From: Bryum argenteum
Taxonomy: Eukaryota > Streptophyta > Bryopsida > Bryales > Bryaceae
Direction: 5' to 3'
NCBI GenBank assembly: GCA_037043015.1
Contig: CM073325.1
Coordinates: 5,435,001 to 5,499,000 of the forward strand
DNA: 64,000 bases
Shown piece after piece: positions 25,081 to 53,066 of this stretch; position 1 is the stretch's first letter, and the number at the start of each line of letters is the position of its first letter. The position numbers and the translations under genes are program-made. The notes under the pieces are model-generated. The model was given only the letters and a program-made list of their open reading frames with translations, did not search any database and was not told the DNA's origin.

Positions 25081-27714
25081 ATGGATGCGGCCATTGAGCA
25101 TGTGCAGCCCGTGATTCTCACCAGCCCTAGCGAGTGGGAAGAGTCGTACCGGCCGCTTCCTTTTCTTTTCTTCGCGCTCTTGATCACGTGGTTGCTGCTC
25201 GTCTTCTTGTGGACGCTCAACACTTGGAGCAAACGGCGATGGCAGGTATACTACCTGGATAATTTCAGAGTAGCCCCCTTCCCGGATGATTTGAGAGTGA
25301 AAGCAACTTCAAAATCAAGACTCCCCGCGCGAGATTTGAATTCTTGAGCGATTCTTGATTACCCTATTACTGATTCTCATTCTTTTTGTGTTGGAGTATG
25401 CAGACTAGTCAATTGCAGTGGATATTGACGGCTGTTCCGATACTCAAGGCGCTTGTTCTTGGTCTCTCCTTCGTATTCTGGTACTGTCTGTGTGATTTTG
25501 GAAGTGATAGATTGAGAAACTTTTAGTACTGGATTTTGATTTGATTCTTCGTATTCTGGTACTGTCGGTGATCTTGGAATTACAAACAAGCGATTCTTGG
25601 ATAGATTGGTTAGTTTTTCAGTGGTGGGTTTTGATTAGTGTTGGTTGCGTGGTGCAGGTATTCGTGTTTGAATTTGAGTACATGTTCATTCTGGGTAGCC
25701 TTCGGAGTGTTCGTTTCTCGAATCTTCTTCGAGACGACGTGCTTCATCGCCTTTCTGTTGATTGCGCATGGCTATTGTATCATGCACGAGCAACTGTCGG
25801 TGTCGGAGCGGCGTTCCATCGCTGGTCTTGCTTCGCTCTTGTACTTAACCCTCACGGGTTACAAGGCTGCCGTCCCGCAATTCGCCGTGAGCCTCTTTTC
25901 ACAACCCTGATTTTGCAATCAACAAAAATCCCACTCTAAAATCAATCAATTGATTCATTTTGTTTTTGTGCAGATTCTGGTTGTATTCGTTTACGGGCTG
26001 TTACTGTACGTCATTATGTTGCACATTGCACGCAACCTCGTCTCGTTACGTGAGCAGTTGCAGCAGATTCAAGACGAAGGCGTGCACATTATGCACACTG
26101 CGGTTTACACCAAGTACCTTATGTTCAAGTAAGCTTTCTCCTTAATATCAGTTTCTAGAGCTTTTTTGTTTCTTGTTCTGAAGGATGAATTCTGAATCGT
26201 TCCTTCCTTCGTTGCTGCAGGAAGTTCCAACGTGCAATGTTTATGATGGTTGTTGCTGAAATTTTGGTAAGCTATCTCTTAAAGGCTTTCATGAAATGTC
26301 TTTGAAAGTCAAATAAATCTCTGCCACTTGATCATGATCATTTTGAATAGGGTTAGTAAATGGTGCAGTACCAGGGGCACCCACAAGTTTAATTTCAAAA
26401 CTTGATAACAAAATTCAGATGGGTCCAAAAATTATTGTGATTTGAGTATGTCCAGCCTTCTACATACTTTGCCTATACTTTGTCCATGCTCACAAATTGC
26501 TTGTATAGCAAAGTTCACTACTGAAATTGGAGCCAGGTTCTCTTGATGTACGAGGGTTTTTGACGTTTATTTGCTTGTTTTGTTTGTCTGTTGTGGGCAG
26601 ATGCATGCACGGACGGATGGATTAGCGAATGAGTATTGGATGCGTCTTCTTGTCCGAGAGTTCACAGAGATTGGCATCTTCTTCTACATTGGGTTAGTAC
26701 TCAAAAACCTTCAGATTCAGTTACTCGAAATTGTTGTATGCTAGTACTTGTATTGATGACCTCACTTTGTGTTTGCAGATGGACGTTCAGATCGAGAGAG
26801 CTCACTCCATTTTTCACCGTCATTCCAGCTCTACAACAACCCTCCGGGCAACGCATCTTGCCACCAATTTATAGTGTGGTAAGTGAACGCCTGGCAATCA
26901 CTTGAACTCTTCCCACCCAAGTGGATAGTGCACACCATTCTGACATCTCTGTCGGGACCGTGGCAGGAAATCAATGAGAAGCAGTTCAACAACCTGGACC
27001 ATAAAGACTGGCACATTGGAGTGGTAAGCTCTCCATCATGCTTCATCACTTAAAAAGCGTGGTCCACCAGTGCTCGGATTCGCGATCCAGCTTCCCATAT
27101 TATATTGACTTTCTTTTGATGAACTTTCGTATTTGGAGCGACAGAATTTCTAAAATACCAATTGCTACAACCTCCTGCGGTCACTTGATCGGGTAGATCC
27201 GGTTGTAGATCAGCTAAATGAAGTTGCCAGATTACTGATATGGTTTGGGAAAGTTAGGACATAATGCAAAGAACACCCAAGTATCACATGAGTATTACCC
27301 CGAGTTTCGGTATCTTAGAACGATTACCAAAAGGTCTTGGGAATAAGGCGATGATAGCTAGATTGTGTCAAAAACTTCCCGAATGTTGCCTTCGTTTGCT
27401 CGCACTATTTTTGATGGTTATTGTGTCTTGTTTTGCAGCCAACATCAATCTCCAGTAACGGAGGTACACAGAGGCCGATGTTAGTGATAGTGCAGAACCC
27501 AGGCATGGCCGACTTCGACGATTTTGTCAAGGAACCGAACAAGGTGTTCAACATATCCTCCACCTTCGAGCAGCCCTCGGAGAAGAAGAGCCGGAGAGAG
27601 AAGAGAGAAGAAAGCATGGTGTTCATGAATGAAGTTGTGGTAGACGTGAAGACGACGCTCAAGAGCTACTCGTTCCTTCAGTTTGAGAATAGATCAACTT
27701 CAAGCCTTGTATGA
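25081..27714 (+). CDS. seven-transmembrane GOST-like / lung-7TM-related membrane protein, 9 exons
   Basis: Exons: 25081-25245, 25404-25480, 25658-25886, 25974-26128, 26221-26266, 26601-26692, 26779-26878, 26967-27023, 27439-27714. All are GT-AG, phases close, and the product is 398 aa. About seven hydrophobic segments are seen, roughly at residues 26-46, 60-82, 91-116, 133-148, 154-176, 211-225 and 240-256. A basic loop (NTWSKRRWQ) follows segment 1, and a cytosolic-looking motif (LSVSERRSIAG) lies between segments 3 and 4. The hydrophilic C-tail has Lys/Arg/Glu-rich runs. The order of segments resembles the GOST/GPR107/lung-7TM fold, whose members act in Golgi and endosome trafficking. It lacks the N-terminal luminal domain of canonical members, so the family call is moderate. 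Two decayed copies lie downstream. The ATG at 25081 is chosen because it opens a coherent first exon; a GC-rich promoter precedes it. Confidence 0.8.
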
Positions 27715-27759
27715 TCCCCCCACCCCTTTTTGCGATTGTCGTGTACACTAATTAAGTTT

Positions 27760-28440
27760 TCCAATAAGTAGATGTACATATGTAGCATAGCATAGCCCGA
27801 CTTCGTCCAGGAGACAACATTTGTTCAGTACATCTGTCATAGAAACCACACAATCATGCCATCATCCTGTTCCTGGCTATTCTGCCACTCTGAACAGTTG
27901 TACTATATCACATGCATACAAAGTATGCATTGCAGATCAATCTCAGTACTTCGCTGACTACACCATCGTGCTTCTTACCTCTTGAAACTCGTAAGCTTGC
28001 AGTGTGTGCTCCATGTCTGCAGGCTATTGTTTTCAAGGTACCATCCCATGACTTCATGATTGTTTGATACAACATGTATACAAAGTTAATCAATCTCCGT
28101 GCACTGACCACTACGTTTACTGCATCATTATGCTTCTTACCTCTTATACAAAATAACTTACAGCCCGTGCTCCATGTCCGCTGGAGCTATTGTTCTGAGG
28201 TATCATTCCTGGGCTTAATAATTGATTAACAGGAGCTACCACATGGAGGGAGTATGATTGTCGGTAAGGAGGGGCGTTGGATGATTGAGTGACAGGCATT
28301 GTTGGCTGGCACGGAGGCATGAGCGTGTTATCCGATGTCAGAGAGAGCGAGGAGAGAACATGCTCTTTTGGCAGGAACTGCTACTCCACTGCACCTCAGC
28401 TGCTCCATCATCACATTCTCTTCTCTCTGGATATGGCTCT
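27760..28440. repeat. 3' flank of the GOST-like gene, duplicated
   Basis: This non-coding flank recurs at about 31090-31400 and 39340-40010. Shared landmarks are CCCGACTTCGTCCAGGAGAC, AACCACACAATCATGCCATC and GGCATTGTTGGCTGGCACGG. Its presence beside both decayed gene copies shows that they arose by segmental DNA duplication, not retroposition. No gene is seen in it. Confidence 0.8.
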
Positions 28441-28636
28441 TACTTGTCACGTTTCTACTCTCCTTTCACTCATTTTTTATTTTTTTGTTGAACCAACCAA
28501 TCAATTTTATCAGTTACATTGAACCAAGGCAAAACAACTGCACTGTTGATGGATGAATGGTGGAGGAGTAGAATAGAAGGTGGGAGAGTCTAAAGCTTTG
28601 ATTTCAAGAAAAGTGAGCTATCTGGGGTTGGGCTAA

Positions 28637-29759: not shown

Positions 29760-31033
29760 TTGGAATTTTTAACGTTTGTCTATTTTGTTGTCCACAGATA
29801 GATGGATTAGCGAACGAGTATCGGATGCGTCTTCTTGTTGGAGAGTTCACACAGATTGGCATCTTCTTCTACATTGGGTTAGTACTCAAAAGTCACCGAA
29901 GACAGGTCTATATCTCTGACTCAAAACTGTGGTCAATGCTAGGAAGTTAACATGCCTAGAAACCAAGCACATTTTATCATTTGAACAAGTTTTCAGGCAG
30001 TGATCGATTGACGTAATTTTCTAGGAGAATGTGCAAACTTTGTAGGGAAGCAGCGATGAAGATATAAAAAATTTCTAACACTTTCCTTTTCTAGTTATGG
30101 AAGGTGATGACCTATGTGTTTCTTTGATCGATGAAGGTGTGATGTACAGTTGAGGATGAACTTGAAAACTAGAATCTTCCTCTTGTGGGGAAGATTTCTG
30201 CGCGGTACAATGCTTGGGTTTTGATCAGGTTCCCTTAGTACTTTTATGATGTCGATCGGTTTTTGGAACACTTTGTGTTTACAGATTGGACGTTCAGATC
30301 GAGAGAGCTCACCCCATTTTCACTGTCATTCAGCCTTACAACAACCCACCGGGCAACGCATCCTGCCACCAGAACGAAGACTACTATGGCATATTGAGCG
30401 TCGCAGCTCTATGTCGGCGAAGCGCTCATTTGAGAATTACAACGTCTTGCGGTCAATGATCGGAGAGATCCGGCATTTTAGTTGTAAATCAGCTTAATGA
30501 AGTTGTTAATTTCTGATTTGATTTGGGAGAGCTAGGAAATTGTGCTGACTCACTATGTAATGATCACCTCAGTATCACCTGAGTATTATCCAAGTATCTT
30601 ACAACATTTACCGGATGCTCTTGGGGAAAATAAAGATAATAGCTAGATTGTGTCAAAATACTACCTGATTGTTGCATTTGCTTGTTCGCAGTGTTTTTAA
30701 TTGTACCGCTCTGGTGGAAATTTTGCAGCCAACATCAATCACCACTAATGGAGGTTCACATGAAGAGGCCGATGTTAGTGATAGTGCAGAACCTAGGCAT
30801 GACCGACTTTGCATTCGAAGACGATGATTATGTCAAGGAATCGAATAAGGTCTTCAATCAACATTCTTTTAATCCTAGCTCTACAGAAAGCCTTCAGAGA
30901 AGAAGAGCCTTTAGAGAAAGGAGGAGAGAGCAGGATGGTGTTCATGGATGAGGTAGAGGTAGACATGAAGACGACGCTCAAGAGCTACTTACTTCCTCAA
31001 TTTGGGAACAGATCAAATTCAAGCATTGTATGA
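29760..31033 (+). pseudogene. decayed copy a of the GOST-like gene (exons 6, 7, 9)
   Basis: Exon 6 remnant about 29799-29877, with TGG changed to CGG in the NEYWMR motif. Exon 7 remnant about 30285-30380, with an extra T after the splice site, a lost T in the TTTTT run and a lost C in ATTCCAG, so the frame is broken. Exon 9 remnant about 30729-31033. Exons 1-5 are absent and exon 8 is not recognisable. The intron after exon 6 is about 400 bp, against 86 bp in the intact gene. No functional product is expected. Confidence 0.85.
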
Positions 31034-31614
31034 TCCTCCTATTTTGCGATTGTCGTGTACACTAAGCATCTACTTCCAAGAATTAAATGTACATATGTAG
31101 CATACCATATTGTAGCCCGACTTCGTCCAGGAGACAACATGTGTTCAATACCTCTGTCATAGAAACCACACAATCATGCCATCATCCTCTTTCTGGCTAT
31201 TTTGCCACTCTTAACAGTTGTACAATGCCACATGCATTGCAAATCAAGCTCAGTACTGACAACACCATTGTGCATCTTAACTCTTGAAACCAGTAAGCTT
31301 GCAGGCATTGTGGATCTATTGTTTCAAGGTATCATTCATTGACTTCATAATTGTTTCATTGGTTGTATTATACAAAGTATGCATTGTTAATCAATCTGCG
31401 TGCAATGATTAAGTTAGATTTGAGAATTTCATAGGAATTTAAAATAAGTTCAATTTGAGAATTTCATTAGATTGGCAAATGCAAATACTTAACTGCGTCC
31501 AATTGCTAGAAATGTTTAATTCAAGTCAACGAGCTAAAGCTTTTGAAGCTTTCTATTGCCATCATCCTAGAATTCAATAATCTGCCTTGAGTTTGTATTC
31601 TACTCCTTATTGCA

Positions 31615-31814
31615 ATCATTAAAAAGCTTGAGAACTAATTGTGACCACTCCCACCGTAAGATCTCAAAGATAACTTGACAAACTACTTGCATTCCAAATC
31701 TAATCCGTGGATTCTACTTTGTTTGTGAGATTGTAAATGTCAAAGTTTGCTGAATTTTTTTCTTGCGCAAACCCTCAAAACATGTTCCGGGATTTAAAGA
31801 TCTCTAGGGGTTAA
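31615..31814. mobile_element. TTAA-type MITE fragment (left end lost)
   Basis: The right end GATCTCTAGGGG precedes TTAA (31811-31814). The interior has CACCGTAAGATCTCAAAGATAACTTGACA and TTTGTGAGATTGTAAATGTCAAAG, as in the complete copy at 59.6 kb. No left terminus is recognisable. The orthologous fragment in the second duplicated block lies at about 41630-41819, so insertion predates the duplication. Confidence 0.6.
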
Positions 31815-31953
31815 AAACAAAAGGCTCACTACTCAACTACTTATGAGATTGAGGCATTGAATTACACAAAACCATTTGAGGTACATGTTCATTTAGAGAC
31901 ATCATGCACCGATGAATTGCATAATCCTCCATTGAGCATTCTAATAAATCCTC

Positions 31954-34900
31954 CTATAATTTGAGTCTCACAATCGGTATAAACAAGGATCTACACACTA
32001 AACAATACTTATACTTGCACCCTCGTGGATAAAATTTGAAATGCCTGCAGATGGTGCACTCCACTTGACATACTACACCGGATCTCCTATCAGTCCTATG
32101 TCGATCTGTACAAACTTTGCACCAGTTCGAATTGCAGAAGGGTGGTGAATGATGGCACTGCACAATTTTAAACAATCATCACATGCAATCTTAGTCATAT
32201 ACAACACTCTCAAAGCACTCAAATCTAATGATGTTTTGGAATTGATCTGCACAACTCTAATGTGTTGATACCAAACTAGACTTTTGGAAATTAGTTAATC
32301 ACCTAACTTATTTGCACTGTCTTAGTATATTCAACCTCATAAGCATAATCAATCAATATTGCTTTTGTTAACTTGATTGCAATTTTCACCCGATGGATCT
32401 TGAGTGAAAGTAACTATTCAAAGTACAAGCATAACTACTACAAAATAACATCTCAACAACACTATTATGAAAACATTACTTCATACACTTCAAACAACCA
32501 ACATTAATTGGGAAATTGTAATAGTTTGGAAAGAGTGATTGACTGGAAGAACCTCCAATCACTTCTAATTACAACTTTCTCAATAACAAACATTTTGATT
32601 TATATGCTTTTGAGGAATGGAAATGTATTCATTCAAGTAAAATTAAAATGTGAATATATCACCATACATACCTGGTGGTACCTGTGAGTGTCATGCTTGA
32701 TTTCTTTATAATTCTTCCAAGGACATGTAGAATCTTTAAGCGAGCAACAGCCATGGACACACACCTCTTGTAAATTTGGCATCTCGCTAAGGTTGGGTAG
32801 CGGGCAAAGATTTGTGCAGTTGCTCAAGTCTAGTGAAGTCAATTTTAATAATTGATCCACACCTTGAATTGTAAAATTCTGACATTCTAATTTCAGTGTC
32901 ATTAATCCTGACAGCTTGCCTAGTCCTTGTACCTCAATGGAGTTACGTATACACAGGTTGAGGGCAGACAACTCGCGCAATCTTCCAAGTGGACTTACAT
33001 CAACTCTTTGAGTGATACACAAGTTATCGTCAAGATCTCCTTCCATTTTGATGCACAAAGTCTTAAGATATTGCAAGTTTGAGGCACATTTCAACAATCC
33101 TTCCAAAGGCATCTTGCTTCGTAATCCAATACCAATGTCAAGACATAGTTCTTCTAGTGCCTTCAGTTTCTCAAATATCTCTGATTGAATCTCAATATAA
33201 TCCACCAACTCCTCCCATAGCTTTATCCTTAAGGATTTGAGATTGCAACACTCTTAAAAATGGAATCTGCTTCAAACCAACCCCCCATAACTCAACAAAC
33301 CAAAGATCTGGAAGACACCCATTCTCATCGTCCCCACTTGAATTACAAACAATCTCCACCAAGCCTTCTACGCGCAAGATCAACACACGCAGGCTCTTCA
33401 AGCACCCCAAATCAAGAGTGGAATTCTCTGCCACACCTTCATGAATCATGAGGCATTCCAACTTCCTACATTGCAGCAACTGTTTGGGATTGATAGAGAT
33501 CTTCGTAAAAAAAGATCCCACACCTCCCACACAAAATCTCCTCACCGAACCAACGTTTATTCCACCACGCCAATTCAACGAGTGCACCCACCACTCACTT
33601 TCTTTGCTACCTTCTTTCATAACCAATGATTGTGCAAACTCTATATACAAGTCATGTAATTTAAGAGTAGGGCTTCCCTCATAAATAAGAGACTTCCGTT
33701 GCAAGTCCTTCACCTGCTCCAGAATTAGCATCAAGAAATCATTAGATATTACCTACATCTATTTTTCAAAAAGTAGATACAAAGAAAAAATACAAGTCGC
33801 ATGCCTTGATATCAATCTACATTGGAATGTTCAATTCCCACCTTTCTTTCTGCAATGACAGGAGAAATGCCATGCAATTTGGCAATTAATGACACTCGCG
33901 ATTCGTAATTCGACGGCTCTCGGAGGATCCATTCGCTCCAATAAGTATAGTTCAACAATAAGGCCACATCTAAGAAGACCAATTTCCCCATGTCTGACAA
34001 TGTTGAGTAGTTCATACCCACAATATAGTTCACTCTCTTCGATTCTCTACATTCTTGTAGTTTGTCCTTAAACGAAATATGCTCCTTCCACTTCATGATA
34101 TTTTCCTTGTCAACGTCGTGGAAATAAGTCCCCAATGCTCTTATAACAAGTGGATGGTATTGTTGATTTATATATCCATCTTCTTCAAATCGGCATTGCT
34201 TAAGACATGCTTCCACAATCTCATCCTCACAAGGCTGCAGCCTGCATATTAATTTCTTTGGAGCAGCCACTGAGAGAAACAACTCTCTTGCTTCATGCTT
34301 TTCCAACCTTGAGATGGGCTTACAATACTTTTCCTCCCCAAGTATGGAATCCAAAATTGCTCGACTCCGCGATGTGACCATCACCTTGCTACCACTTGCA
34401 ACTACAGTCTTCACCAAACCACGTGCTTCCTCTCGAGAGGACTCAAGGTCCCCAACATTATCCACAGCTAAAAACATTGATGGTTGGCATTCCAATCGCC
34501 TTCGTAAACAATCCAGTCCCTACACAGCAAGCAAACCACTCTCAAATATCCCATGAGTCATATTCTCGTATCAGCCAAAAATATCACAAGTTCCAATACA
34601 GAGTCCTTACAAGGATGAAAAAGTATCCACAAGAAGCACCCATCAACTACGACCACCACTAGATGTCCAATTACTAACCTGCCACTCTGAATCGATGCTG
34701 TCAACAATCCTCGTGTCCAAACCACTCAATCCTCGAAGTATAGATTTTATCCTTGAAACCCGACCCTTTTCAGCACTCTGCTCCTCCCCACCGCTTGGCA
34801 GCTCCACGTAACATACCCGCGGACCATACTCCTCCTGAAAATAACTGCACATAGCTCTGCACAACGTGGATTTCCCCACCCCACCAAGCCCGTATAATCC

Positions 34901-35903
34901 TAGATAATAACATCCTTCTCTGCAAATAATCCCCTCATATGTCCCCCCCTCAGATGTCCCGTCCTCGAACATCCTTGATGTTATCTGGAAGGATTCCAAC
35001 ATGCATCAAGCTTAAGTTGCAGCTCAAGTTTGCACATTGTCATTTCAAGGTTTCCAAAACAGTTATACTACTCTCTGCCATGTACACGCCTTCCACATAC
35101 CTCACAAAGGCGCTTGTATCCTCGGATGTCATCAATCTTATACTTCATCACTGGAGGCACTTTGTTGCAAATCTCCTCCACCACGGCATTCCTATACGTC
35201 ACTTCTGAAGTCCCATACTTGCCAAACTCCACGCCGTTGTATGCCCGTAACTCTCGCACAGCATCATCCCACGAGGCAATCTCCTCTCCCGAAACCGCAC
35301 CCTCCTGCACCATTTTCATCCACGACTCCCTCCACTGTGTCTCCACTCTCTCTGCAGAAATGTCACTCGGCGACAGCTTATAGAACACAGGGAACAGTTT
35401 CAGATTTGGATTTGCCCCCTTCATGGACTTCACAAAGGTGCTCAGCTCCAGCATGGGCCATTTCGATCTCAAATAGCCTTCTGACAACACCACCACCGCC
35501 AACAAGCATTTTTCTGCCGCTGAGAGAATCGTAGGAGGGAACTTGTCTCCCTTTGGTAAACTGTCGCGATCTTGGTCGAAGAAAGGATTTTGGTTCATCC
35601 GTTTTAGATCCTCGTGGAGTTGCTCAACAAAGTCTTTCTCATTCCCGCTGTGACTTAAAAATATGGTGTGCTTCGGAGTGGGCTGAGGAAGACGTCTGCA
35701 GAAATCAACACCACACATTACTCCACGCAGACAATCAAATCACATTCCTCACCAGCCAGTGTCTTGACATTTGGGGAGAAACTCGAAACCAAATAAAAAC
35801 TCAAAGGGCCAAAGTATCTTCAACTTAAGCATGAGCCCTGGCGTAATTAGAAATGATGAACATACCGCCTCTTCGCTGATGGCTCTGTTTCATGCTCTGC
35901 CAT
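31954..35903 (-). CDS. TIR-NBS-LRR immune receptor gene 1, frameshifted in the LRR part
   Basis: Intracellular NLR-type receptor. Minus-strand exons: 35866-35903, 35101-35695 (TIR), 34679-34984 (P-loop), 33842-34519 (rest of NBS), 32672-33713 (LHD motif and LRR) and 31954-32157 (Cys-rich tail). TIR domain spans about residues 21-190 (HTIFLSHSG; putative catalytic Glu96 in KWPMLELST). P-loop GLGGVGKST near 243-251. Kinase-2-like FLAVDNV near 329-335. RNBS-B KVMVTSRSR, GLPL-like HPLVIRALG, MHD-like LKLHDL. LRRs follow. Exon 5 is 2 nt short of copy 2: around 33240-33265, TTTTTAAGAGTGTTGC stands where copy 2 has two more bases. The first frame therefore stops at 33192 and the downstream LRR frame is open from 33208. 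The product is probably truncated unless the site is spliced out. The ATG at 35903 gives MAEHETEP, conserved in copy 2. The last exon is inferred from matching splice sites and phase in both copies. Confidence 0.85.
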
Positions 35904-36205
35904 GACAGCCTTCGATGGACTTTACACACATTCAGCAACTAAATGTCAGCTCGACAACACTGGTCCAAGAATACTTTCAGCAACAAATCCTAAATTGTTA
36001 CGGGAAAGTGAGGAGGCCTTAAGCTTCAAAGAGTGCCAAGAGCTAAGCGGTTACATGCGTGATACTCTTGCACGAAACGAGGTTGATAAATGGCTTGAGG
36101 TTGTGTCGCACAACTCAACTAGAAGATCGAGCGTACAGCATCCCCAGCTTGCGAATGAATGGTCACTGCAAAAGTACACCGATAACATCTGATCACACTG
36201 AAAAC

Positions 36206-36523
36206 TCAAACCCTTTCATCACAAACTGACCTAACTTTACTAGGCTGCAGGCCAAGCGACTTGTTCCAGAAGTCGAGAATGATTAAGGAGAAAACAGAGT
36301 TCCTGAAGGCGAGCAAGGTTGTAAGTGGTACCTGCAGATCAAACTTCAGAGACGTTAGAAGCGCCACCAAGTTGACAATGAGTGCGGTAACGAGTCCAAC
36401 GAGCGCCGGTAAAGGAGAGACTAAACGACAGAAATACTTCACTTCGAGCTGAACTGAAATCCCTAAAACAATGGACAGTCTAGTGGTTCTAACGATGTTT
36501 GCTGCTTCGGCCACACCGTTCAC
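36206..36523 (-). other. open frame upstream of TIR-NBS-LRR gene 1, hydrophobic, uncertain
   Basis: A 105-codon frame without an ATG at its start, with two hydrophobic stretches (around LVGLVTALIVNLVALL and VFSLIILDFW). The equivalent stretch in copy 2 (46240-46545) keeps the C-terminal part (ILDFW.KS.GLQPSK) but is out of frame in its middle. The similarity is explained by the segmental duplication alone. I cannot claim a gene; it may be a 5' UTR or promoter. Confidence 0.2.
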
Positions 36524-37424
36524 GACGGCTTGTTAATGTGTTCCATACGAAAGGAAATGGTTACCGAGGTTTCGTATGCATGCAAAACCTGGTACCCTGG
36601 AAACAATCGATATAATCTGCAATCGACTTTACTATTAAAATCAGAACGAATTCACAAGTTTGACGGCTTCTCTCAGGGCGAATCGCATACAGGATATGAC
36701 TGAAGGAGATCGTCACCTACATAAACCTCCGATCAAGGCTGACGGTAAAAGCGAAACCCTTGTACAGTAAGCCTGCTTCTCTCCCAATGGTCACACTCCA
36801 TAAGCAAATGAAATGAAAGCTGAACCTGAACCCGAACCCAGCAGAAGTGAGTAAGAAGACACTCGATCAACGTAGCACCGTCCGCCCTTAAACCTTGCTA
36901 CGAACCGCAAATGACTCTTCGAGGTGAGTCTCCGGGGATATTTCATAATTACTGTAGCGAGCCTTGATGGAACAGTAAAGTCATCTTGATCAAGTGAATT
37001 TGTCACAATTCTCGGGATGAGCTTCTAGTCCACCCAGATCAAAGTTCTGGTTCCCACATTCTCTGAAGCATCACTGAATTGGCATTCGAGTTGCAGAACA
37101 AAATCATGAGTGAAAGCTGGAGTGAAGAGATCGTGGTGATAGCATTTGAAACATGCATTGCAAGTGAGCGAGCATCACTTGAAGCTCTGCTTTTCGGAAG
37201 TGAAGTGTGGGATGACTCTTCAACTGCAGCAACATTCTTCCTTGGAGCACTTCTATGAGCAATGTGACACTTGGAATTTGGATTTCCAAGCACAACAACA
37301 AAATGATGTATTTAATATGTTAAAAGAGGATTTCATTACGCCCCTAAATGCGCTGAATGTCGAAAGAAACTACATTTTGAAATTTTGAAGTGCCTTCACT
37401 TTAAAGTTTGAAGTGCCATAATTT

Positions 37425-37937: not shown

Positions 37938-39293
37938 ACTGTATTCTACTGTTGGTGATTTTGGAAGTGATTATTGGTTAGTTTTTAGAAGTCGATTTTG
38001 ATGGTTGTGTGGTGCACGTATTCGTGTTTGAATTTGAGAACATGTTGATTCTGGATAATCTTCGGAGTGTTCGTTTCCTGAATCTTCTTTGAGATGATGT
38101 GCTTCATCGCCTTTCTGTTGATTGCGCATGGCTATTATATTATGCACGAGCAACTGTCGGTGTTGGAGCGGCATTCTATCACTGGTCTTGCTTTGCTTCT
38201 GTAGTGAAATCCTCACGAGGGTAGAAGGCTGCCGTCCATCAATTTGTTGTTAGTTCTACAACCCTGTTTGCTGCACTCAGCAAAAACTCACTCTAAAATC
38301 AACTCCCAATTTATTGTACCAATTGGTTCACCTTCAGTTAGTACTCTAAAGTCACGAAAGTCAGGTTTACATTTGTAACTCAAAATTGTGGTCAATGCTA
38401 GGAAGTTAGCATGCCTAGAAACCAAGCAGATTTTATTATTTGAACAAGTTCTCAGGGAGTGATCGATTGTCGGAATTTTCTAGGAGAGTGTGCAAACTTT
38501 GTGGGAAAGCAGTGATGAAGATGTACAAATTTTCTAACTTTTTCTTTTTTTGGTTATAGAAGGTGATGTCATATGTGTATCTTTTATTGATGAAGGTGTA
38601 ATGTACAATTGAGGATGAACTTGAAAAACTAGAATCTTCCTAAAATCTTCCTCTGGTGGGGAAATCTTCTTCTCCTATTATATCAAATTGTAGTCGTTTT
38701 CTGTTCATGAACCTCAAAATATTAAGAGCGCTAAAAAAGTCTAAAATACTAACAAGACCAGAATTACTACAACGTCTTGCGGTCAATGATCCGGCATTTA
38801 GTTGTGAAGCAACTTAATTAATCACTGATTTGATTTGGGAGAGTTAGTATATTGTGTTGACTCATAATATAATGCTCACCTAAGTATTACCCAAGTATCC
38901 TACAACGATTACCGGATGCTCTTGGGATAAAGAAGAAGAAAGAGAAAATATTTGTTCATAGTGTTTTTGATGGTATTGTCATGGTGGAAATTTTGGAGCC
39001 AACATCAATCATCACTAACGGATGTTCACAAAGACCGATGTTAGTGATAGTGCAGAACGCAGGCATCACCGACTTTGCTTCCGAAGACGATGACCATGTC
39101 AAGGGACCGAACAAGGTCTTCAACATTCACATATAACTCTACTGACCGAGAGCCTTTGGATAAAAAGAGCCAGAACAAGATATTTGAGAAGAGAACAAGA
39201 TGGTGTTCATTGATGAGGTTGTGCTAAACGACTCTCAAGTGCTACTCGTTCCTTCAGTTTGAGAACAAATCAAATTCAAGCCTTGTATGACCC
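37938..39293 (+). pseudogene. decayed copy b of the GOST-like gene (exons 3 and 9)
   Basis: Exon 3 with its upstream intron is recognisable at about 37938-38260, with frame-breaking changes (for example TTTCTCG to TTTCCTG, and a TAG in the CTTCTGTAGTGAAATCC stretch). From about 38338 the sequence resumes inside the enlarged intron 6 shared with copy a. The last exon remnant is about 38998-39293, with indels. Exons 4-8 are missing. Its 3' flank to about 40010 matches the flank of the intact gene. It is non-functional. Confidence 0.85.
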
Positions 39294-40499
39294 CATTTTG
39301 CGATTATCGTGTACACTAACCATCTTCTTCCAATAAGTAGATGTACATATGTAGCATAGCATAGCCTAGCCCGACTTCGTCCAGGAGACAACATTTGTCC
39401 GATCACTACATCTGTCATAGAAACCACACAATCATGCCATCATCTGTTCCTGGCTATTCTGCCGCTCTAAACAGTTGTACAATACCACATGCATTGCAAT
39501 TCAATCTCAATACTTCGATCGCTGACTACACCATTGTGCTTCTTACCTCTTGAAACTCGTAAGTTTGCAGGCATTGTGGAGCTACTGTTTCAAGGTATCA
39601 TCCCTTGACTTCATAATAAGTTGTATCGTACAAAGTATGCACTGTTGATCAATCTCCGTGCACTGACCACTACGTTTACTACATCATTATGCTTCTTACC
39701 TCTTATACAAAATAACTTACAGTTTGTGCTCAATGTCCGCTGGAGCTATTGTTTTGAGGTATCATTGCTGGGCTTAATAACTGATTAATCGGAGCTACCA
39801 CATGGAGGGAGTATGATCGGTTGTCGGTAAGGAGGGGCGTTGGATGATTGAGTGACAGGCATTGTTGGCTGGCACGGAGGCATGAGCGTGTTATTCGATG
39901 TCAGAGAGAGCGTGGAGAGAATATGCTCTTTCGGCAGAATCTGCTACTCCACTGCACCTCAGCTGCTCCATCATCACATTCTCTTCTTTTCTGGCTATGG
40001 CTCTGACTTGTCACGTGGTTTCTATCCTCATTGCAGTCTTTTCTTCTGGATACATTTTTCAAGTCACTGGTCTATTTTGTTGGATTTGTCTCAAGTGGAA
40101 CATGTCTTTCTTCCGTGATATGTTTTCATACGGAAGAATACACCTAAAACTGGCGAAGTACGAGAAATGTCCCACTGGTATGAACTTAGAGGGTTTAGAC
40201 TGCCCCATTTGAGACGAGAACACCTACAAGACCGACAAACACTAATTCTATCATACATGGTTTTTTCACAAAAAAACATGTACAAGTAAACATGGGTGCA
40301 CTTAAAAGATCCGTATTAAACTTGTAAGTAAGTATGCTCAATAAGGTGAATTCTTTCTATCAAAGTAGAGGATATAAGGGAGATCAAATTAGCGAAGTAA
40401 AAATGGCATGAGTGGTTTGATAAGGTTTTGGACTTGTATGCATGTCTCAAACTATAGAGGATCGGTAGACTTTACCCGTATGATCTTGCGCGTAAGACT

Positions 40500-40840: not shown

Positions 40841-41907
40841 AAAGGAAGAAGGTTGTTGTGAGCAAAATCGAAAAATGTTGAGTCTCGTTTGTAGAAGTAC
40901 AGTAAGGGACAAGTGAATATTGGTGCTGTGTATGCCAAAGTGTTAGAATAAGGACATTACATTATCTTGATGTTTAAATGGGATGGGAGTTTTTCCATAC
41001 TTGATTTAGGTGGTTAGACCAACGCAGTTTGGTGGATATAGGTTGCTTTATTTTGAGTTTATTGATCCACTAAGATCTTTGATAGCTTAAATGGAATTTT
41101 GCAATTTTGGCTTTTGGTAAATTTTGCATCAATTCTATATCTCATGATCTCACAATTTAGACACTTCCTATGGTTGAAATTAATTATGGCACTTGAGGTA
41201 GTAATTACCTTCAAGAATGAAAGCAACAAAGACTTTAAATAAGATTTTGACCTTAACGGTTGCATGTTACATTTTTTGGTTTTTGAACTCCAAAACACAC
41301 AAAGATTTTCAATTTCATGGTTTTGCATCAAACTACAAATGGTCTTTTGGCTTCAAGGTGTTGATTAGAAAAATGGCAAAATAAACGTCTTTGGATTGAG
41401 GTAGGAATTCGAACAAGTTATATTTAAGAATTTAATTGGAATTTAAAATAAGTTTAATTTGAGAAATTCATTACATTGAAAAATGCAAATACTTAACTGC
41501 ATCCAATTGCTAGGAATGTTTAATTCAATTCAACAAGCTATAGCTTTTAAAGCTTTTTATTGCCACCATCCTAGAACTCAAAAGTTTGTCTTGAGTTTGT
41601 ATTGTACCGCCTATTGCAATCGTTAAAAAGCTTGAGAACTAATTGTCATCACTCCCACCGTCAGATCTCAAAGATAACTTGACATACTACTTGCATGCCA
41701 AATTTGAACTGTCAATTCTGCATTGATTGTGAGATTGTAATTGTCGAAGTTGGATGAATTTTGTTCTTGCGCAAACCCTCAAAACCTGTTTTGGGATTTT
41801 AAGGATCTCTAGGGGTTAAAATCAAAGGACTCACTACTCAACTACTTATGAGATTGAGGCATTGAATTTACACAAAACCATTTGAGGTACACGTTCATTT
41901 AGAGACA

Positions 41908-44900
41908 TCATATGAATTGCCTCAATATCGGTTCAAACAAGGATTTACACACAAAACAATTCTCTCCCTTGCACCTTCCTGGATAAAGTTCAAAATGCTC
42001 GCAGATTTCGCACTCCTGTTGACATATTACACCGAATCTCAAATGTCGATGAATGCAAACTAAGCAATTGTCAAAATTGCAAACGGGATGATGGCACTGC
42101 ACAATTTCAAACCATCATCACATGCAATCTTAGTCATATACAACACTCTCAAAGCACTCAAATCTCATGCTATTTTGGAATTGATTTGTACAACTCTAGT
42201 GTGTTGATACCAAACTAGACTTTTGGAAAATAATTAATCACCTACCTTATTTGCAATGTCATAGTATTTTCAACCTCAGAAGCATTATCAATCAATATTG
42301 CTTCTGTTAACTTGATTGCAATTCCCAATGGACCTTGTGTGAAAGTACCTATTCGCAGTACAAGCTTAACTACTACAAAATAATATCTCAACATCACTAT
42401 TATGAAAACATTACTTCATACACTTCAAAAACAACAAACAGTTATTGGAAAATAGTAATAGTTTGAAAAAAGTCATTTCTAATGACAACTTTCTCAAATA
42501 CAAACATTTGTATTCATATACTTTTGAGGAATGGAAAGGTTTTCATTCAAGTGAAATTAAAATGTGAATATATCACCATACATACCTGGTGGTGGTGGTA
42601 TCTGTGAGTGCCATGCTTGATTTCTTTATAATTCTTCCAAGGACACGTAGAATCTTCAAGCGAACAACACTCATGGACACAAACCTCTTGTAAATTAGGC
42701 ATCTCGCTAAGGTTCGGTAGTAGGCAAAGATTTTTGCACTCGCTCAAGTCTAGTGAAGTCAATTTTGATAATTGATCCATACCTTCGATTGTAGAATTCT
42801 TACATCATAATTTCAATGTCATTAATCCTGATAGCTTGCGAAGTCCTTGTACCTCCCTTGTGTAGTTGCATAGGGAAAGGTTGAGGGCAGACAACTCTCG
42901 CAAGCCTCCAAGTGGACTTACATCAACTCTTTGAGTGTTACACACGTCGTGGTCATCAATGTCCTCAATATCCAAAATCTTGAGGGATTGCAAGTTTGAG
43001 GCACAACTCAAAAATCCTTCAAAAGGCATCTCACTTTGAGATGCATTAGAGTACAGAAGATATATTTCTTCTAATGCCTTTAATTTCTCAAATATTTGGG
43101 GTTTGGTCTCAATTCCATCCACCAACTCCAAGCACCATGGATTTATCCATAACCTTTTGAGATTGTAACATTCTGCTATAAATGAAATCCGCTCCACATC
43201 TCTCCCACACAACTGAAAAAACTCAAGCTTTGGAAGACACCCTTCATTACCATCCCCTTTCGTACTACAAACAATCTCCACCAAGCCCTCTACATCCAAG
43301 ATCAACACACGCAGGCTCTTCATGCACCCCAAATCAAGAATGGAATTCTTTACAACCTGAGCTTCATATATGATAAGGCACTCTAACATCTCACATTGTT
43401 GCAGTTGTTTAGGATTAATGATGATCTTCGATTTACCTTCCACACAAAATCTCCTCACTAAACCAACATTTATTCCACATGGCGAATTCACCGAGTGCAC
43501 CCACCACTCCCTTTCTCTGCTACCTTCTTTCATAACCAATGATTGTGCAAACTCTATATACAAGTCATGTAATTTAAGAGTAGGGCTTCCCTCATAGATT
43601 AGAGACTTCCGCTGCAAGTCCTTCACCTGCTCAAAAATCAGCACCATAGAATCATTAGATTTTACTAACATCTATCTTTCCAAAAGAAGATGAGAAGAAA
43701 ACATACAAGACGCATGCCTAGAATATCAACAATCTACAATGGAGTGATAAATTCCCACCTTTCTCTCTGCCATAATTGGAGAAATGCCATGCAATGCCGC
43801 AATAAATGACACTTGCCTTTCGTAATCCAACGTATCCAGAGTAAAGATGCAACAATCGCTCCAAAAAGTATAACTCAACAATAAGGCCACATCTAAGAAG
43901 ACCAATTTCCCCATGTCTGACAATGTAAAGTAGTTCAGACCCACAATATCGTTCACTCGCTTCGATTCTCTACACTCTTGTAGTTTGTTCTCAACCAAAA
44001 TATGCTCCTTCCACTTCATGATATTTTCTTTGTCGACGTCGTGGAAATAACTCCCCAATGCTCTTATAACAAGTGGATGGTATTGTTGCTTTGCATATCC
44101 ATCCTCAGCAAATTGACATTGTCCAAGACATGCTTCCACTATCTCATCTTCATATAGTTGTAACTTGCTTAATGATTTTTTTGGAGCAGCCACAGAGAGA
44201 AGCAACTCTCTTGCTTCATGCTTTTCCAACCTTGATATGGGTTTAGAATACTTTTCCTCCCCAAATATGGAATCCAAAATTGCTCGACTCCGTGATGTGA
44301 CCATCACCTTGCTAGCAGTTGCAACTACAGTCTTCACCAAACCACGCGCTTCCTCTCGAGAGGACTCAACGTCCCCAACATTATCCACAGCAAGAAACAC
44401 TGCTGGTTGACCTTCCAATCGCCTTCGTAAGCATTCCAGTCCCTACACACCAAGCAACAAATCTCAAGTAGCCAATGAGTCTTATTCTCGTATCAGCCTA
44501 CATTATCACAAGTTCCAATACAAAGTCCGGACATGGCTGAATACGTATCCACAAGAAGCACCCATCAACCACGACCACGACCAGGATGCCCTAGTTCTTA
44601 CCTGCGACTCTGAATCGATGCTGTCAACAATCCTCGTGTCCAAACCACTCAATCCTCGAAGTATAGTTTTTATCCTTGAAACCCGACCCTTTTTAGCACT
44701 CTGCTCACTCTGGTCCTCCGCATCGCTTGGCAGCTCCACGTAACATACCCGCGGACCATACTCCTCCTGAAAATAACTGCACATAGCTTTGCACAGCGTG
44801 GATTTTCCCACCCCACCAAGCCCGTATAATCCTAGATAATAACATCCTTTTCTACAAATAATCTCCTCAGATGTCCCCTCCTCAGATGTCCCCTCCTCAA

Positions 44901-45888
44901 ACATCCTTGATGTTATCTGTAAGGATTCCAACATGCATCAAGCTTAGAGGCGTTTGCACCTCAAGTATGCACATTGTCATTTCAAGGTTTAAAATTGCAA
45001 CTCAAGTTTGCACATTGTCATTTCATGGTTTCCAAACCAGTTATACTACTCTCTGCCATATAGACGCCTTCCACATACCTCACAAAGGCGTCCATATCCT
45101 CGGATGTCATCAGTCTTATACTTCAGCACTGGAGGCACTTTGTTGCATATCTCCTCCACCACGGCTTTCCTATACTTCACTTCTGAAGTCCCATACTTGC
45201 CAAACTCCACGCCGTTGTATGCCCGTAACTCTCGCACAGCATCACTCCACGAGGCAATCTCCTCTGCCGATATCGCACCCTCCTGCACCAATTTCTTCCA
45301 CGACTCCCTCCACTGTATCTCCACTCTCTCTGCAGAAATGTAACTCGGCGACAGCTTATAGAACACGGGAAACAGTTTCAGATTCGGATTTGCCCCCTTC
45401 ATGGCCTTCACAAAGGTGCTCAGCACCAGCATGGGCCATTTCGATCTCAAATAGCCTTCTGACAGCACCACCACTGCCAACAAGCATTGTTCTGCCGCTG
45501 AGAGAATCCTAGGAGGGAACTTGTCTCCCTTCGGTAAACTGTCGGGATCTTGGTCGAAGAAAGGATTATGATCCATCCGTTTTAGATCCTCGTGGAGTTG
45601 CTCAACAAAGTCTTTCTCATCCCCGCTGTGACTTAGAAATATGGTGTGCTTGGAAGTGGGCTGAGGAAGACATCTGCAGACATCAACACCACACGAAGAA
45701 TGTAAGCAGACATTCAAATCTCAATCCTCAGCAGCTAGTGACTTGACATTCTGGCAGAAACTCGGAACCAAAGAGGTCCAAAACTTCAAGGCACTGGAGT
45801 ATATGAACTATGAGGATGAGCTCTGTCGTCATTAAAATTGACATACATACCGCCTTTTGGGTGCTGGCTCTGATTCATGCTCTGCCAT
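41908..45888 (-). CDS. TIR-NBS-LRR immune receptor gene 2, in-frame TGA in the LRR part
   Basis: Same architecture as gene 1. Minus-strand exons: 45851-45888, 45079-45673, 44602-44916, 43759-44442, 42586-43626 and 41908-42096. Phases close for 953 codons plus stop if one internal TGA is ignored. That TGA (42805-42807) stands where gene 1 has GAA, after SGLMTLKL, and removes the last LRRs and the Cys-rich exon. TIR domain about residues 21-190; position 96, Glu in gene 1 and the usual TIR NADase glutamate, is Val here (KWPMLVLST). P-loop GLGGVGKST, kinase-2-like FLAVDNV, KVMVTSRSR and LKLHDL are intact. The splice acceptor before exon 3 differs by two bases from gene 1 (TTACAG against TTCCAG) but still works. 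The start gives MAEHESEP. The gene may encode a truncated TIR-NBS protein or be decaying. Confidence 0.85.
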
Positions 45889-46239
45889 GACGGCCTTCGA
45901 TGGATTTTACCCAACTGTCTGCTCGATAACACTGGTCTAACAACAGTGCTTTCAGCAACAGATCCTAAATTGCTCCGGGAAAGTGACAAGGGCCTGGGCT
46001 TCAGAGACTGTCGATAGCTAAACCATCACATGACGAGACTATGGGTACTGCTTTTGTACAAAACAAGCCTCGGAGTGGCTCGGATTTGTGTCGCACAACA
46101 ACCTCGGTCTTTCTATTCGATTCTCAGCATCCCCCAGCTTGCATATAAATTGTCACTGCAAAAGTACACCGGAAACATCTGATCACTGATAGGAGTAATT
46201 TCATACTATAACCTCAAACCCTTCCATCACAGACTGACC

Positions 46240-46545
46240 TCAATTTGCTAGGCTGCAGGCCGAATGACTTTTCCCAGAAGTCGAGAATGAATAAAAAGAG
46301 AACAGGGATCCTGAAAGAGAGCAAGGCTGTGAGTGACACTTACAGTCACGTTCGTTTGAGTTCGACGCCTCACCAAGTTGACATTGAGTGAGGTAACCAG
46401 TCCAACGAGCGCGGGTGGAGGAGAGGCTAACTACGGAAATAAGCAAGAAACAACGAACGAGGCTTCTACGAACACCAGAGATTTCGATATCCCAGAACAG
46501 TGGACAGTCTAGTGGTTCTCATGATCTTTGCGGGTTCGGCCACAC
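46240..46545 (-). other. 5' flank of TIR-NBS-LRR gene 2, counterpart of 36206-36523
   Basis: Matches the hydrophobic open frame upstream of gene 1, but a 1-nt shift around 46330 breaks that frame. This argues against a conserved protein and favours non-coding leader or promoter sequence. Confidence 0.3.
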
Positions 46546-47867
46546 CGTTGACGAGGCTCGTCGATGTGTTCCATACGAGAAGAAATGGGCACCGGTGTTC
46601 CGTATGAATGCAAACCCTAGAAACAAGCGTTCTCATCTGCAATCGAGTTGAGTATCGAAATCAGAACACTCCACAAAATTAGCGGGTACTCTGAGGACGA
46701 ATTGTATAAAGTATGTGATTAAAGAGAGGCGTCACGTACATAAACCTCCGGTCAAGGCTGTCGGTAAAGCGAAACCCTTCTAGCCCACCAAGTCCAGCCT
46801 GCTACCCTCCCAATGGCCACTCTCGATGAGCAAACGAAATGGAATGTGGCCGTGAGCCCAGCAGAAGAAGTGAGTGATTAGCCAACCCCTCAGCGTAGCA
46901 CCGTCCGCCCTTGAGCCCTCGCTTCGATCTGCAAATGACTCGTCGGGGTGTGTCTCCAGGGGACTTTGCAAAAAAACTGAAGCGTGCGTTTGATGGAACA
47001 ATAAAGTCATCTTGATCAAGTCACCTTTGTCACAGTCATCGACATATGTACATGTATCTTATATCTTCAATTTGCATTTTACAGCATTTGTGAGATCGTT
47101 ATGTTTAAAGTTCAAGATTAGTTATTTTCTTCTTTGTAAAGTGGGAACTTAGTCTGTTGGGGGCCGAGATGACCATTATTGGGAGATGATTCCACCTGGA
47201 GCTTTTCGTAGTCGGTACATGTCTACACAATTCAACCCTCTTTCTTAGAACCCTGAACCCTAAACCTTGAATTTTCACATGGAGGTGATTATGCTAAAAT
47301 TCAAATTCAATTACAAATTTATAACAACAAAAAGGGCCTGTAAAATAGTATCAGATTGGGAATCCACACAGTCCTTAGTAACTCCTGTGATTCAGCACGC
47401 TGCAAAAGTATCAATACAAGTTTTCTAATTTTATCCCTTGATAACTTAGGACTCAATAAATCCTTCATACCCCTACATTGACGTATTTCATAAGAATATT
47501 TAAGAGTGATACCTCAAGAAGGTACCAGGGTAGAAGCATCTATATTTGGATGCCCCCCTTTCATCGAACAACCTTTAGAATTGCTTACCTGGTTCTTAGA
47601 TTAGCACATCCTTGCATGTACTCCATACATACATATTTACAGTATTTGGTTATAGGTAAGGCTATACTAGGCTTTTCTAAATTTGCGTTTAATTATCTAA
47701 GTGCCACAAAAATACCACAAAAATGTTGAAGAATTGTCTTTTCTATTAGCTAATGATTGAAAATGAGCAAATCACACATGTCATGACTTCAAATATGATG
47801 AATGGCCCAAGGGTATGATAATATGTGTTTTTACCCTATTTGAGTGTAAGCCAAATAACGGAGAGGA

Positions 47868-49731: not shown

Positions 49732-50133
49732 TTAACCCCACCCTTGAACAAAGTTTGAGTTGCACCAAAAGCCTTCATTCAACGCTTGCCAAAAGCACAA
49801 GCCTACTCCATTGCAATTACAAGGAGGTAGGCTATATGCATAGCCCATGAACGCATTGATGGTGGTGGTGGGCTTGCCAGGTGAGGAAAATGTGCAAGTG
49901 TAGATGTCATTGCTTAAAAAACTTGTGGTGAAGGTCCAAGAGTATCGATTGAACGGCATCAATGTCATGGGGCCGAAGTCCTTGCCCTTGTTCGTCCGAC
50001 AATGGAAGTCGAGCTTTTGACCCACTGTCACGGATTCATTTTCAATGGTCAATTTGACTCCCTCCACACCTTTTACAATACTTTGCACCATGATCAACAC
50101 CAAAAGACAAGTCCACACCTTCAGAAACGCCAT
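49732..50133 (-). CDS. S-protein homologue (plant self-incompatibility S1 family), secreted
   Basis: Small secreted protein of 133 aa in one exon. Residues 1-25 form a signal peptide ([20 protein letters not shown]). The mature part shows the S1-family order: a beta-strand start (VKLTIENES), [14 protein letters not shown], a tryptophan core [10 protein letters not shown], then YTCTFSS. Six cysteines lie in the mature part (near 45, 80, 105, 107, 113, 124), consistent with disulphides. The family is named for the poppy pistil determinant, but most members in other plants have no known role, so no self-incompatibility function is implied. The start is set at MAFLKV, because the ten codons upstream make a poor signal peptide. 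Downstream, a fragment of its 3' end was copied to 29.2 kb. Confidence 0.8.
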
Positions 50134-53066
50134 CTGTGAAACCTGCACAACAACGAATCTCACTAATCAACAATCCTCCTCAAAACTCTCTCCACCTCTT
50201 CAACCAACAATGCGCATAGCCAACCATTGATACTACAAGTAAGCATAAGAGAAATTAGAAGCAATCTGCGACAAACTCGTCTGTACAAAGCCACATCCAA
50301 ATGTAAAATGCAAAAGGTGCAACCCGCCATGCATTATGGAACCATTCAACGATTATTTGCCTTCATACAATTGCAGTAGATGGATCCCAAAGGAGACTTC
50401 CCAATCACTTCTCTGAATCGCTCAGTTCGTTCATAGAAGATGAAACCTGAACCTGATAACAGTGGAAATCGGAAAACATGCTCTGGAGTGATGCAAGCAG
50501 AAGGGGGTGCAGCAAGAGCAGCCAAAGAAGAGGTTCGTAAGCACTTACAAGTAAAGCCTGCTCGGCAGCCCAGAAGCCACAAGTGAAGCCAATGCTGGAC
50601 CGCTCTCCTATTTATTCGGCTTTGATTGAAGTCCCCTGACGAACAGACTTCATTTGAAGAACATGAAGCATGCAATTGCGTAAATTGATCCCCAAGGACT
50701 TCATTCAGTCACTTCGAGACTTAATTTCATGGTGAGCTTGATGATGAGCAAGAGCCGAGAGATGCACGACCTTGTGCAGGAATCAGATCTTTTGTTCTGG
50801 AAAGCAAGCAATTGAGAGTGATTGACAGGAGCATATCCGCCGGATTTGTGTTTATGTTATGAGGTACTGTCTGGGAGTTGAAGGATCCATCATGTGGCAA
50901 CTTGCCATGGAGGCCCATGTCATCCTCAGTCCATTGCAATCCGAAGAAAACGGATCCCTGTCCTCATCGCCTCCTAATCTCCTCTAACACGAAGACCTTG
51001 TTTTTGGATTTGAGATTTTGGAAAAGCACCAAAACTCACCATGTTGATGTAGAGTAATGCAAGTGATAAGGGAACCTATTCAATGATGGCTTCAATTTTC
51101 ATTATGACAATAAAGTTAGTAGTGTATGTTATTTGTGTGTACGAACAAAGTCAGTAGAAGTTTGGACATACTAAAATTGTTACTTTTTAAACCCTTGTAG
51201 GATATTGTTTTGAAGTTGAAATTAGAGGTATTATTAACTAGCAAAGTCTAAAATGTTTATGGTGAGTACATTGGATATCATCCTTCAAACTTAAGCTATT
51301 ATGTACTCCATGCAAAGTTTAGTCTAGTAGGTCAATTTTAGTGTTGTGCAGATTTTGAGCATTCTATCTCAGGGCCCATCACTTCTAAAATCTGAAAACT
51401 GCATGAATATTGGTAACTATCACCCTGCAACCATAATTCAAGTGAGTCGAAAGAAAAATAGTGGAGTCTATATTTGTTGGTAGGAAAACACCATTGGGAC
51501 AATCACTTAGTCTATATGGAGCACGACTACAAGTACTTAGTCTCGTACGAAAATGTCGAATTGTAAGAGATTATAAGTTATTTCTCCCATTAATGAAATT
51601 GTCCTCTTGCACCAAAATGGAGGAAGAAGGCCAATTTTATTGAGTTGGAAATGTCGAGTCTCATTTCGTAATAAAGCTTCGTAAGCCTGGACAAGTGAAT
51701 ATTGATACTCTCGACGAGCTAGAGTATGAATTTAGGGAATTTAGAACCTTTGACTTTCAATGTACCATGAAGGCGTAGAACCAAACTTGCCTTTCCCGCA
51801 AGCTCGAATTAATGGAAAAGCGGAAGTGGACTCTTATGGCGGAGGGGAGAAGACGCAAGAGTGACCTATACATCAAAACTCCTAACGAGAGGTTACCATT
51901 ATATCTAGGGTTTGTACAATAGGCTCTCGAATCTGCACGGCCTACGCATTTGCGGATCGTCACGAGCGCACTAATGCATACATATTCAAAAGGATTTAAG
52001 ACATGCTAGTGGACAATAGATTGAAGTGATTTTTACCAATTTTCTTCTTCTGTACAAAAACACAAAAACAAGATAGGATGCGGCCGATATTTTCATAGTT
52101 TCTAACTTTGGACTAGGCTTTCCAATACGCCTCACAAGATATTTTCATTTACGAAGGAGTCACAATACGGTGAGCGCTAGTTCCTTGTGGCCTGGGTTAG
52201 AAGGGGGTGTTTGCTTGCAAGTGCTACTTTAGAGGGAACTGCCGATGGAAATCCGGGCGTATTCGAATGGCCGCGATTGTACGGTCCCAGTGGAACCATC
52301 ACAAAAACTTACGAGGGAAAACCCAGTTGGTTCGGCGATGGATAGAACTGAGAATCAGGAAAGTCCTGCTTCTCCTACCCGAGTTCAGGCTGGGGGCCTG
52401 CGGCCGATCGAACTCGGAAGTGTACGATTAAGGATGTTGTTAAAGTTGATGAGCTGCGTTGTCCAACAAAAGGTTAACATGGAGGTGGCAAATGTTGTAA
52501 CGTGACGCCGGACTCTCGTGAGGTTGTGGCTGTTGAAGTCTGGGCTGAACTCAGAAGTGGCCGCCGACGTTGCCTGTGCTCCACCTCCGCTATGCTCGAG
52601 GCCAAAGCACTCTATCTCCGGCTTTAGGTACTCGCGCTTCTTCGCACCTTCCGCCCTCAGCCTCTTCCGAACGCGCTTCTGTAGGCTGCGTGCCTCGCAT
52701 GCAGTGCCATCTCTTCGTCAATCGTCTTTCGCTTCTTCGAGATGCATCCCACCCTATCGCCACCACATACCATCACTCGTCACTACTCCATGAATACGAG
52801 ATCAGTAGCAACAACGCATGTATCTCCTTGTATGAAACATTACATTTGCATTTTTCAAGATGAGTTAAAGTGCGGATGGATTCTTTCTACTTATCAGCTT
52901 GCTTCTACTTTTTCGACTCATGATCTCGATCACACGACTGGGTCGAAGCAAGTCCAACACATTCCATAATTCTCGGTGCATGACACGGTTCGATGAAAAC
53001 GATTCACGTATTTACAGAAGAGATGCATGATCTACCTCTGGTTTGATCAAATGAATGAAAGGCGAC
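50134..53066. other. intergenic, no gene recognised
   Basis: Short open frames only. Contains the 50893-50975 duplicate segment and a GC-richer stretch at about 52190-52800. That stretch has several overlapping open frames but no recognisable motif. It could hold downstream exons of the minus-strand PLATZ gene, which I could not place. Confidence 0.4.
50893..50975. repeat. short duplicated segment (pair with 40757-40840)
   Basis: Carries the same GCAATCCGAAGAAAACGGAT and CCCTGTCCTCATCGCCTCCTA landmarks as 40757-40840. Non-coding. Confidence 0.75.

Follow-up and report, generated by a model that had tools for sequence, protein, structure and literature searches.

A candidate ten-cysteine tail exon behind the leucine-rich repeats of a small TNL clade in the moss Bryum argenteum

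Plant TIR-NB-LRR receptors (TNLs) can carry further domains behind the LRR. In Arabidopsis, CHS3 is a TIR-NB-LRR-LIM protein that is regulated by its C-terminal LIM domain, and the substitution C1340Y near this domain leads to autoimmunity (PMC9204091). In RPP1 and ROQ1 of flowering plants, the C-JID follows the LRR and contacts the effector jointly with it (PMC8813719). For mosses, PMC11218826 describes NLR-IDs with C- or N-terminal added domains that include zinc fingers, with expansion in Ceratodon and Sphagnum. Here, exon models of three loci of Bryum argenteum show a predicted gene structure in which a phase-0 intron behind the LRR is followed by a Cys-rich tail exon.

The window, that is, the whole stretch of 64,000 nucleotides that was analyzed, contains two tandem TNL copies (unit of copy 1, 31411-37007; unit of copy 2, 41415-47034), which are 81.4% identical. 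Each has six exons, in the order ATG exon, TIR, P-loop part, second NB-ARC part, LRR and Cys exon; all junctions are GT-AG, and those past exon 2 are in phase 0, except for the lesion in the LRR of copy 1. A TIR at the N-terminal end, an NB-ARC with P-loop and an LRR are all present. In Pfam, LRR_4 exceeded the cut-off for exon 5 of copy 2; the LRR matches of copy 1 were weaker and stayed under it. The features are as follows.

35866-35903, minus strand: copy 1, exon 1 with ATG, ending in phase 2
35101-35695, minus strand: copy 1, exon 2, TIR domain (PF01582, E 2.3e-15)
34679-34984, minus strand: copy 1, exon 3, P-loop GLGGVGKST
33842-34519, minus strand: copy 1, exon 4, second part of NB-ARC (PF00931, E 9.6e-06, over cut-off)
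32672-33713, minus strand: copy 1, exon 5, LRR; 2 bp missing near 33254 relative to copy 2, stop at 33192
32158-32671, minus strand: copy 1, intron 5, 514 bp, GTATGT...TTGTGCAG, phase 0
31954-32157, minus strand: copy 1, exon 6 (predicted Cys exon), 67 aa and TAG, 10 Cys, His kept at 3 places
45851-45888, minus strand: copy 2, exon 1 with ATG
45079-45673, minus strand: copy 2, exon 2, TIR; SKWPMLVL where copy 1 has SKWPMLEL
44602-44916, minus strand: copy 2, exon 3, P-loop
43759-44442, minus strand: copy 2, exon 4, NB-ARC
42586-43626, minus strand: copy 2, LRR exon; in-frame TGA at 42805-42807
42097-42585, minus strand: copy 2, intron 5, 489 bp, phase 0
41908-42096, minus strand: copy 2, predicted Cys exon, 62 aa and TGA, 10 Cys

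The LRR exon of copy 1 ends with ..TACCACCAG at 32672, followed by the donor GTATGT and, across the intron, the acceptor AAAATTGTGCAG; in copy 2, the donor follows 42586 and the acceptor reads GAAATTGTGCAG; both copies share TGTGCAG. The original prediction had placed donor and acceptor at 32672/32157 and 42586/42096, both in phase 0, and had read-through past the donor of copy 1 end at a TGA at 32633; the exon models bear out each of these points. Behind the TNL copies lie further repeat blocks that are 74-82% identical (27166-28478, 30438-31408 and 38768-40045), so the duplication extends beyond the gene itself, and part of a third unit is present. Elsewhere in the window are pieces of a sperm-tail PG-rich repeat (SHIPPO) gene (55912-57220, plus strand), which fit a plant with swimming sperm, and open frames of the PLATZ type (53070-53567, minus strand) and the self-incompatibility S1 type (49735-50166, minus strand). 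The LEAFY-type protein of this genome reads KMRDYVHCYALH; Asp at that place is the form of mosses, which agrees with a moss as the source.

The genome (258.8 Mb, 25 contigs, with the window at C5:5435001-5499000) was searched for relatives. Exon 4 gave 111 matches genome-wide, the nearest at C2:33.58 and C2:33.59 Mb (L016 and L017; 67%) and C2:10.95 Mb (L018; 59%), followed by three on C9 (44-47%) and the remainder at 36% and less. In a 20-row tree built on TIR plus NB-ARC, with some long rows and a midpoint root only, the two window copies and L016, L017 and L018 formed a clade of five with support of 100/99. The LRR exon of L017 ends with ..TACCATGAG/GTATGTGT (slashes mark splice junctions), and a 520-bp intron leads to the acceptor GAATTTGTGCAG/TGCCATCAA and a tail exon of 73 aa that has the ten Cys and one extra. 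Thus, both window copies and L017 have the donor at the same place, phase 0, the acceptor TTGTGCAG/TGCCATCA and introns of 514, 489 and 520 bp. With L016 included, intron 5 varies little in length (489-527 bp); its sequence is mostly unalignable when the window copies are compared with the C2 genes, apart from part of the last ∼110 bases. L016 retains both splice sites of this intron, lacks the first Cys and has stops thereafter, and its LRR frame is split too; the tail profile, built without the L016 row, matches this locus at 1.3e-9. In L018, the tail is reduced to a remnant reading CILELHCRICNHTN, stop, YPFDC, which the L017 tail retrieved at E 0.043 and the profile scan at 0.23, below its inclusion threshold. 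The original prediction had also looked to Cys losses in other copies as a sign against selection; such losses occur in these two decayed relatives, whereas L017 keeps the ten Cys. With the L017 tail, five places in the genome were hit at E up to 10, all adjoining genes of the one clade. No stand-alone relative of the tail was found in the genome with either window tail or that of L017, which retrieved only clade loci and one match on C1. The latter (E 0.89, partial) has Trp in place of the last Cys and lies in 3.1 kb without similarity to TNLs, and was left as a chance match.

The Cys spacings of the predicted exon are exactly as first read from the window, namely 6, 4, 2, 13, 3, 2, 9, 4, 2 in copy 1 and 4, 4, 2, 10, 3, 2, 9, 4, 2 in copy 2. 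All ten Cys are kept, which supports the proposed selected Cys scaffold: the ten are among the 35 identical of the 62 aligned positions in the window pair (hypergeometric P 0.0017), and among the 21/62 positions invariant in the three open tails (both copies and L017; P 3.3e-6). Gaps in the alignment of the two window tails are whole codons, and the three open tails contain neither stops nor frameshifts. Conserved sets of potential ligands are present, with ten Cys in three copies and His at 3 places. No Met occurs in the tail frame of either window copy. A phase-0 acceptor followed by Cys-x(6,12)-Cys-x2-Cys was found five times in the 2.5-kb post-LRR regions (0.21 expected from shuffles; 20 TNL loci, with the broken fragments L022 and L023 left out), although the pattern was defined after examples had been seen and the five matches (copy 1, copy 2, L017, L024 and L026) contain two pairs of close paralogs. 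It was absent from five more distant TNLs, whose 3.4 kb may in some cases stop before the LRR end. Judged by splice sites, frames and spacings, the predicted terminal spliced Cys exon behind the LRR is real, and we read it as one whose scaffold is kept and whose loops change fast.

Among the coding exons of the window pair, the Cys exon has diverged furthest (76.7% identity, next to 91.0% in intron 5 and 89.3% in the 3′ flank); identity in intron 1 and in the region upstream is equally low or lower. Within the pair, dN is 0.324 and dS 0.285 (dN/dS 1.14), as against Jukes-Cantor (JC) distances of 0.096 for intron 5 and 0.116 for the 3′ flank, so that dN is about three times the distance of the flanking intron. 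Compared with the intron rate, non-synonymous changes are in excess (Fisher P 1.6e-7), and so are synonymous ones (P 0.016), both tests being on rounded counts. The dS of the LRR exon is equally high (0.31-0.40). The synonymous excess implies a contribution from gene conversion in the flanking sequence or from long-retained alleles of the exon, and such conversion could account for part of the excess in the Cys exon. Against L017, the two window copies give dS values of 1.68 and 1.07 and dN values of 0.56 and 0.64, with dS near saturation. On a dN/dS near 1, which the original prediction regarded as speaking against selection on the exon, the result is therefore mixed: the ratio is 1.14 in the window pair and about 0.3-0.6 against L017, the latter with dS near saturation. 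These estimates show an apparent longer-term constraint on the Cys exon, combined with rapid divergence of the inter-Cys residues of the two window copies.

The receptors themselves are damaged. As originally described, an LRR frame runs up to the donor; the splice sites hold, but the frame is interrupted in both copies, and neither has an uninterrupted frame from the TIR to the LRR end. Copy 1 has lost 2 bp near 33254 in comparison with copy 2, which shifts the LRR frame into a stop at 33192; in copy 2, the in-frame TGA at 42805-42807 lies in the LRR exon. As assembled, therefore, neither yields a full-length TNL with tail. In addition, the TIR of copy 2 (45421-45435, minus strand) has Val at the place of the Glu found in copy 1 and 15 other TIRs (17 of the 20 loci were compared, and the 16 besides copy 2 have Glu); the replaced residue is presumably the catalytic (NADase) residue of the TIR. 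Both window genes are probably truncated receptors or pseudogenes of recent origin, in which case the working form, if any, is elsewhere in the genome, and their lesions could be recent or be assembly errors. The exons of L017 are individually open, ATG exon included, with the exception that its intron 3 has the donor CAG/AT instead of GT; an in-frame AAG/GT lies 18 nt upstream, and L016 and L018 have GT at this donor. A defect or suspect site is thus found in all five clade genes (copy 1, copy 2, L016, L017 and L018), and the clade may be decaying.

What kind of domain the tail might form was addressed by profile and structure searches. None of the tails matched a Pfam family below E 1, and Pfam showed no C-JID in the LRR pieces of the window, the LRR exons of L017 and L018, or the tails, which agrees with the initial statement that the tail is not that of a standard TNL. 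The candidates IBR_2 (E 1.2), PilI (1.3) and Zn_Tnp_IS91 (4.4) were rejected as chance level. Among PDB sequences, the tail of copy 1 matched only RnfD (E 0.91), and the tail of copy 2 and a four-row profile matched nothing. AlphaFold on the two-row tail alignment reached a pLDDT of 52.7, so the model was set aside for fold search and no fold is claimed. Identity with zf-TAZ was rejected as well: no tail had a TAZ match in Pfam, a genome search with zf-TAZ led to four other places only, and a comparison of profiles with three of the genome's TAZ stretches gave a probability of 0.7%. TNLs are regarded as cytosolic, which makes it more likely that the ten Cys hold zinc than that they form disulfides, and the Cys-rich tail would then probably bind zinc, although no family match speaks for this metal. 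The tail was not described in the open-license PMC text (without supplementary tables) searched for TNL tails, zinc and moss NLRs.

The reading that we rank first, and to which we give an even chance, is that of a clade-specific zinc-type sensor or regulatory tail of 60-73 residues behind the LRR of one small moss TNL clade. The tail would fold round zinc, its ten Cys and three kept His providing up to three four-ligand sites, and would occupy the post-LRR place held by the C-JID in angiosperm TNLs, where it could be part of a ligand-recognition or latch surface. A ligand touching the loops might then release the NB-ARC switch and thereby TIR signaling; retention of intron 5 would lead to a stop about 10-14 codons past the donor and hence to a tail-less form. 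Recognition or latching is placed first because of the position of the C-JID, the zinc fingers integrated in moss NLRs and the regulation of CHS3 by LIM; the defect or suspect site in every one of the five genes stands against it.

That same observation, together with the dN/dS of 1.14 of the Cys exon in the window pair, speaks for a tail that worked in the ancestor of the clade and is now seen in slow decay in pseudogenized descendants. We consider such a relic possible, if somewhat unlikely, as the tails of both copies and L017 lack stops and frameshifts, gaps are whole codons, ten Cys are kept at 35/62 identity, and the damage might be of recent date or an artifact of assembly. The Cys exon might also never be joined to the LRR, the transcripts reading through and the Cys frame being 3′ UTR or intron, and in both copies and L017 a read-through stop indeed follows soon past the donor; yet Cys frame, splice sites and phase are kept relative to L017 and dS exceeds dN in an exon next to a mostly unalignable intron, which makes this improbable. 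Many plant defense peptides are short and Cys-rich, so that a separate gene for a small secreted peptide behind each TNL comes to mind. Without a Met in the frame of either window copy, however, no free ATG-started peptide is possible there; neither is there a signal-peptide-like start, and the frame opens only a few codons ahead of the acceptor, leaving this explanation with very little credit. Hardly any weight, finally, falls to a TAZ-type zinc finger joined to the TNL: by eye, the three H..C-x(3,4)-C-x2-C repeats are TAZ-like, but Pfam, the genome search and the profile comparison were all negative, and the spacing differs.

Beyond the clade, two further loci on C5, L024 (18.08 Mb) and L026 (18.42 Mb), have NB-ARC domains 35-36% identical to that of copy 1. 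In both, a phase-0 acceptor ATACAG precedes an exon that starts with CLLPSDEAGICKVC or CLCPSNESGICKAC and continues into a GTPase (MMR_HSR1/AIG1-like; MMR_HSR1 E 2.6e-08 and 2.2e-07); a donor at the LRR end is seen in L026. Its start, C1-x9-C11-x2-C14, is spaced as in copy 2 and L017. The apparent order in L026 (4161-6503, plus strand) and L024 (1695-3971, minus strand) is TNL, phase-0 intron, Cys module, GTPase and a further Cys/His stretch; what follows the TNL could also be a separate gene ∼200 bp downstream. The five-gene tail clade and that of L024 and L026 fall into one 11-row group (100/99) with the C9 TNLs and L033. The post-LRR pattern scan showed no Cys exon start in the C9 TNLs or L033, and profile and pattern scans found no tail in the C9 group (L019, L020 and L021; exons were listed for L019 and L021). 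L019 and L021 have GAG/GTATGTTG at the corresponding end of the LRR exon, with no Cys exon found downstream. Common descent of the L024/L026 exon start and the tail exon is possible and would rest on three Cys. Rather doubtful, and offered tentatively, is the wider proposal that moss TNLs had an ancestral post-LRR phase-0 exon slot starting with C-x9-C-x2-C, which in one clade would have become a free, fast-changing zinc tail of three modules, in L024 and L026 a fusion to an AIG1-like GTPase, and in others would have been lost; in mosses, the slot might then correspond to the angiosperm C-JID, as a recognition head that changes quickly and is spliced alternatively.

The tail TNLs are best read as a variant of NLRs with C-terminal added domains, the tail itself being without a catalogued relative. 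The moss NLR-IDs were found by known domain models (PMC11218826), and such a screen would miss a ten-Cys tail; since NLR surveys rely on such models, they overlook an orphan tail that follows an intron. Should the tail prove to be expressed and zinc-binding, mosses would have a TNL sensor or latch part from no catalogued domain, with a conserved scaffold and fast loops, and it would become testable how TNLs outside flowering plants, reportedly without C-JID, recognize ligands. Within the same genome, L024 and L026 share with the tail genes the donor place and a phase-0 exon starting with Cys, in the C-x9-C-x2-C spacing of copy 2 and L017, but their exon continues into a GTPase and lacks the ten-Cys tail. 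With zf-TAZ, the tail shares three Cys/His modules, although no profile match is significant and the placing of His and the linker lengths are unlike. The C-JID corresponds to the moss tail in its position straight behind the LRR and differs in being a β-sandwich of about 150 aa, found in flowering plants according to PMC8813719, whereas the tail has 62-73 aa, is Cys-rich and has no C-JID match. The LIM domain of CHS3 belongs to a known family, in contrast to the moss tail with its other Cys spacing and no Pfam match; what the two share is the architecture of a TNL with a C-terminal domain of the zinc-binding type, zinc being predicted from sequence in the moss tail.
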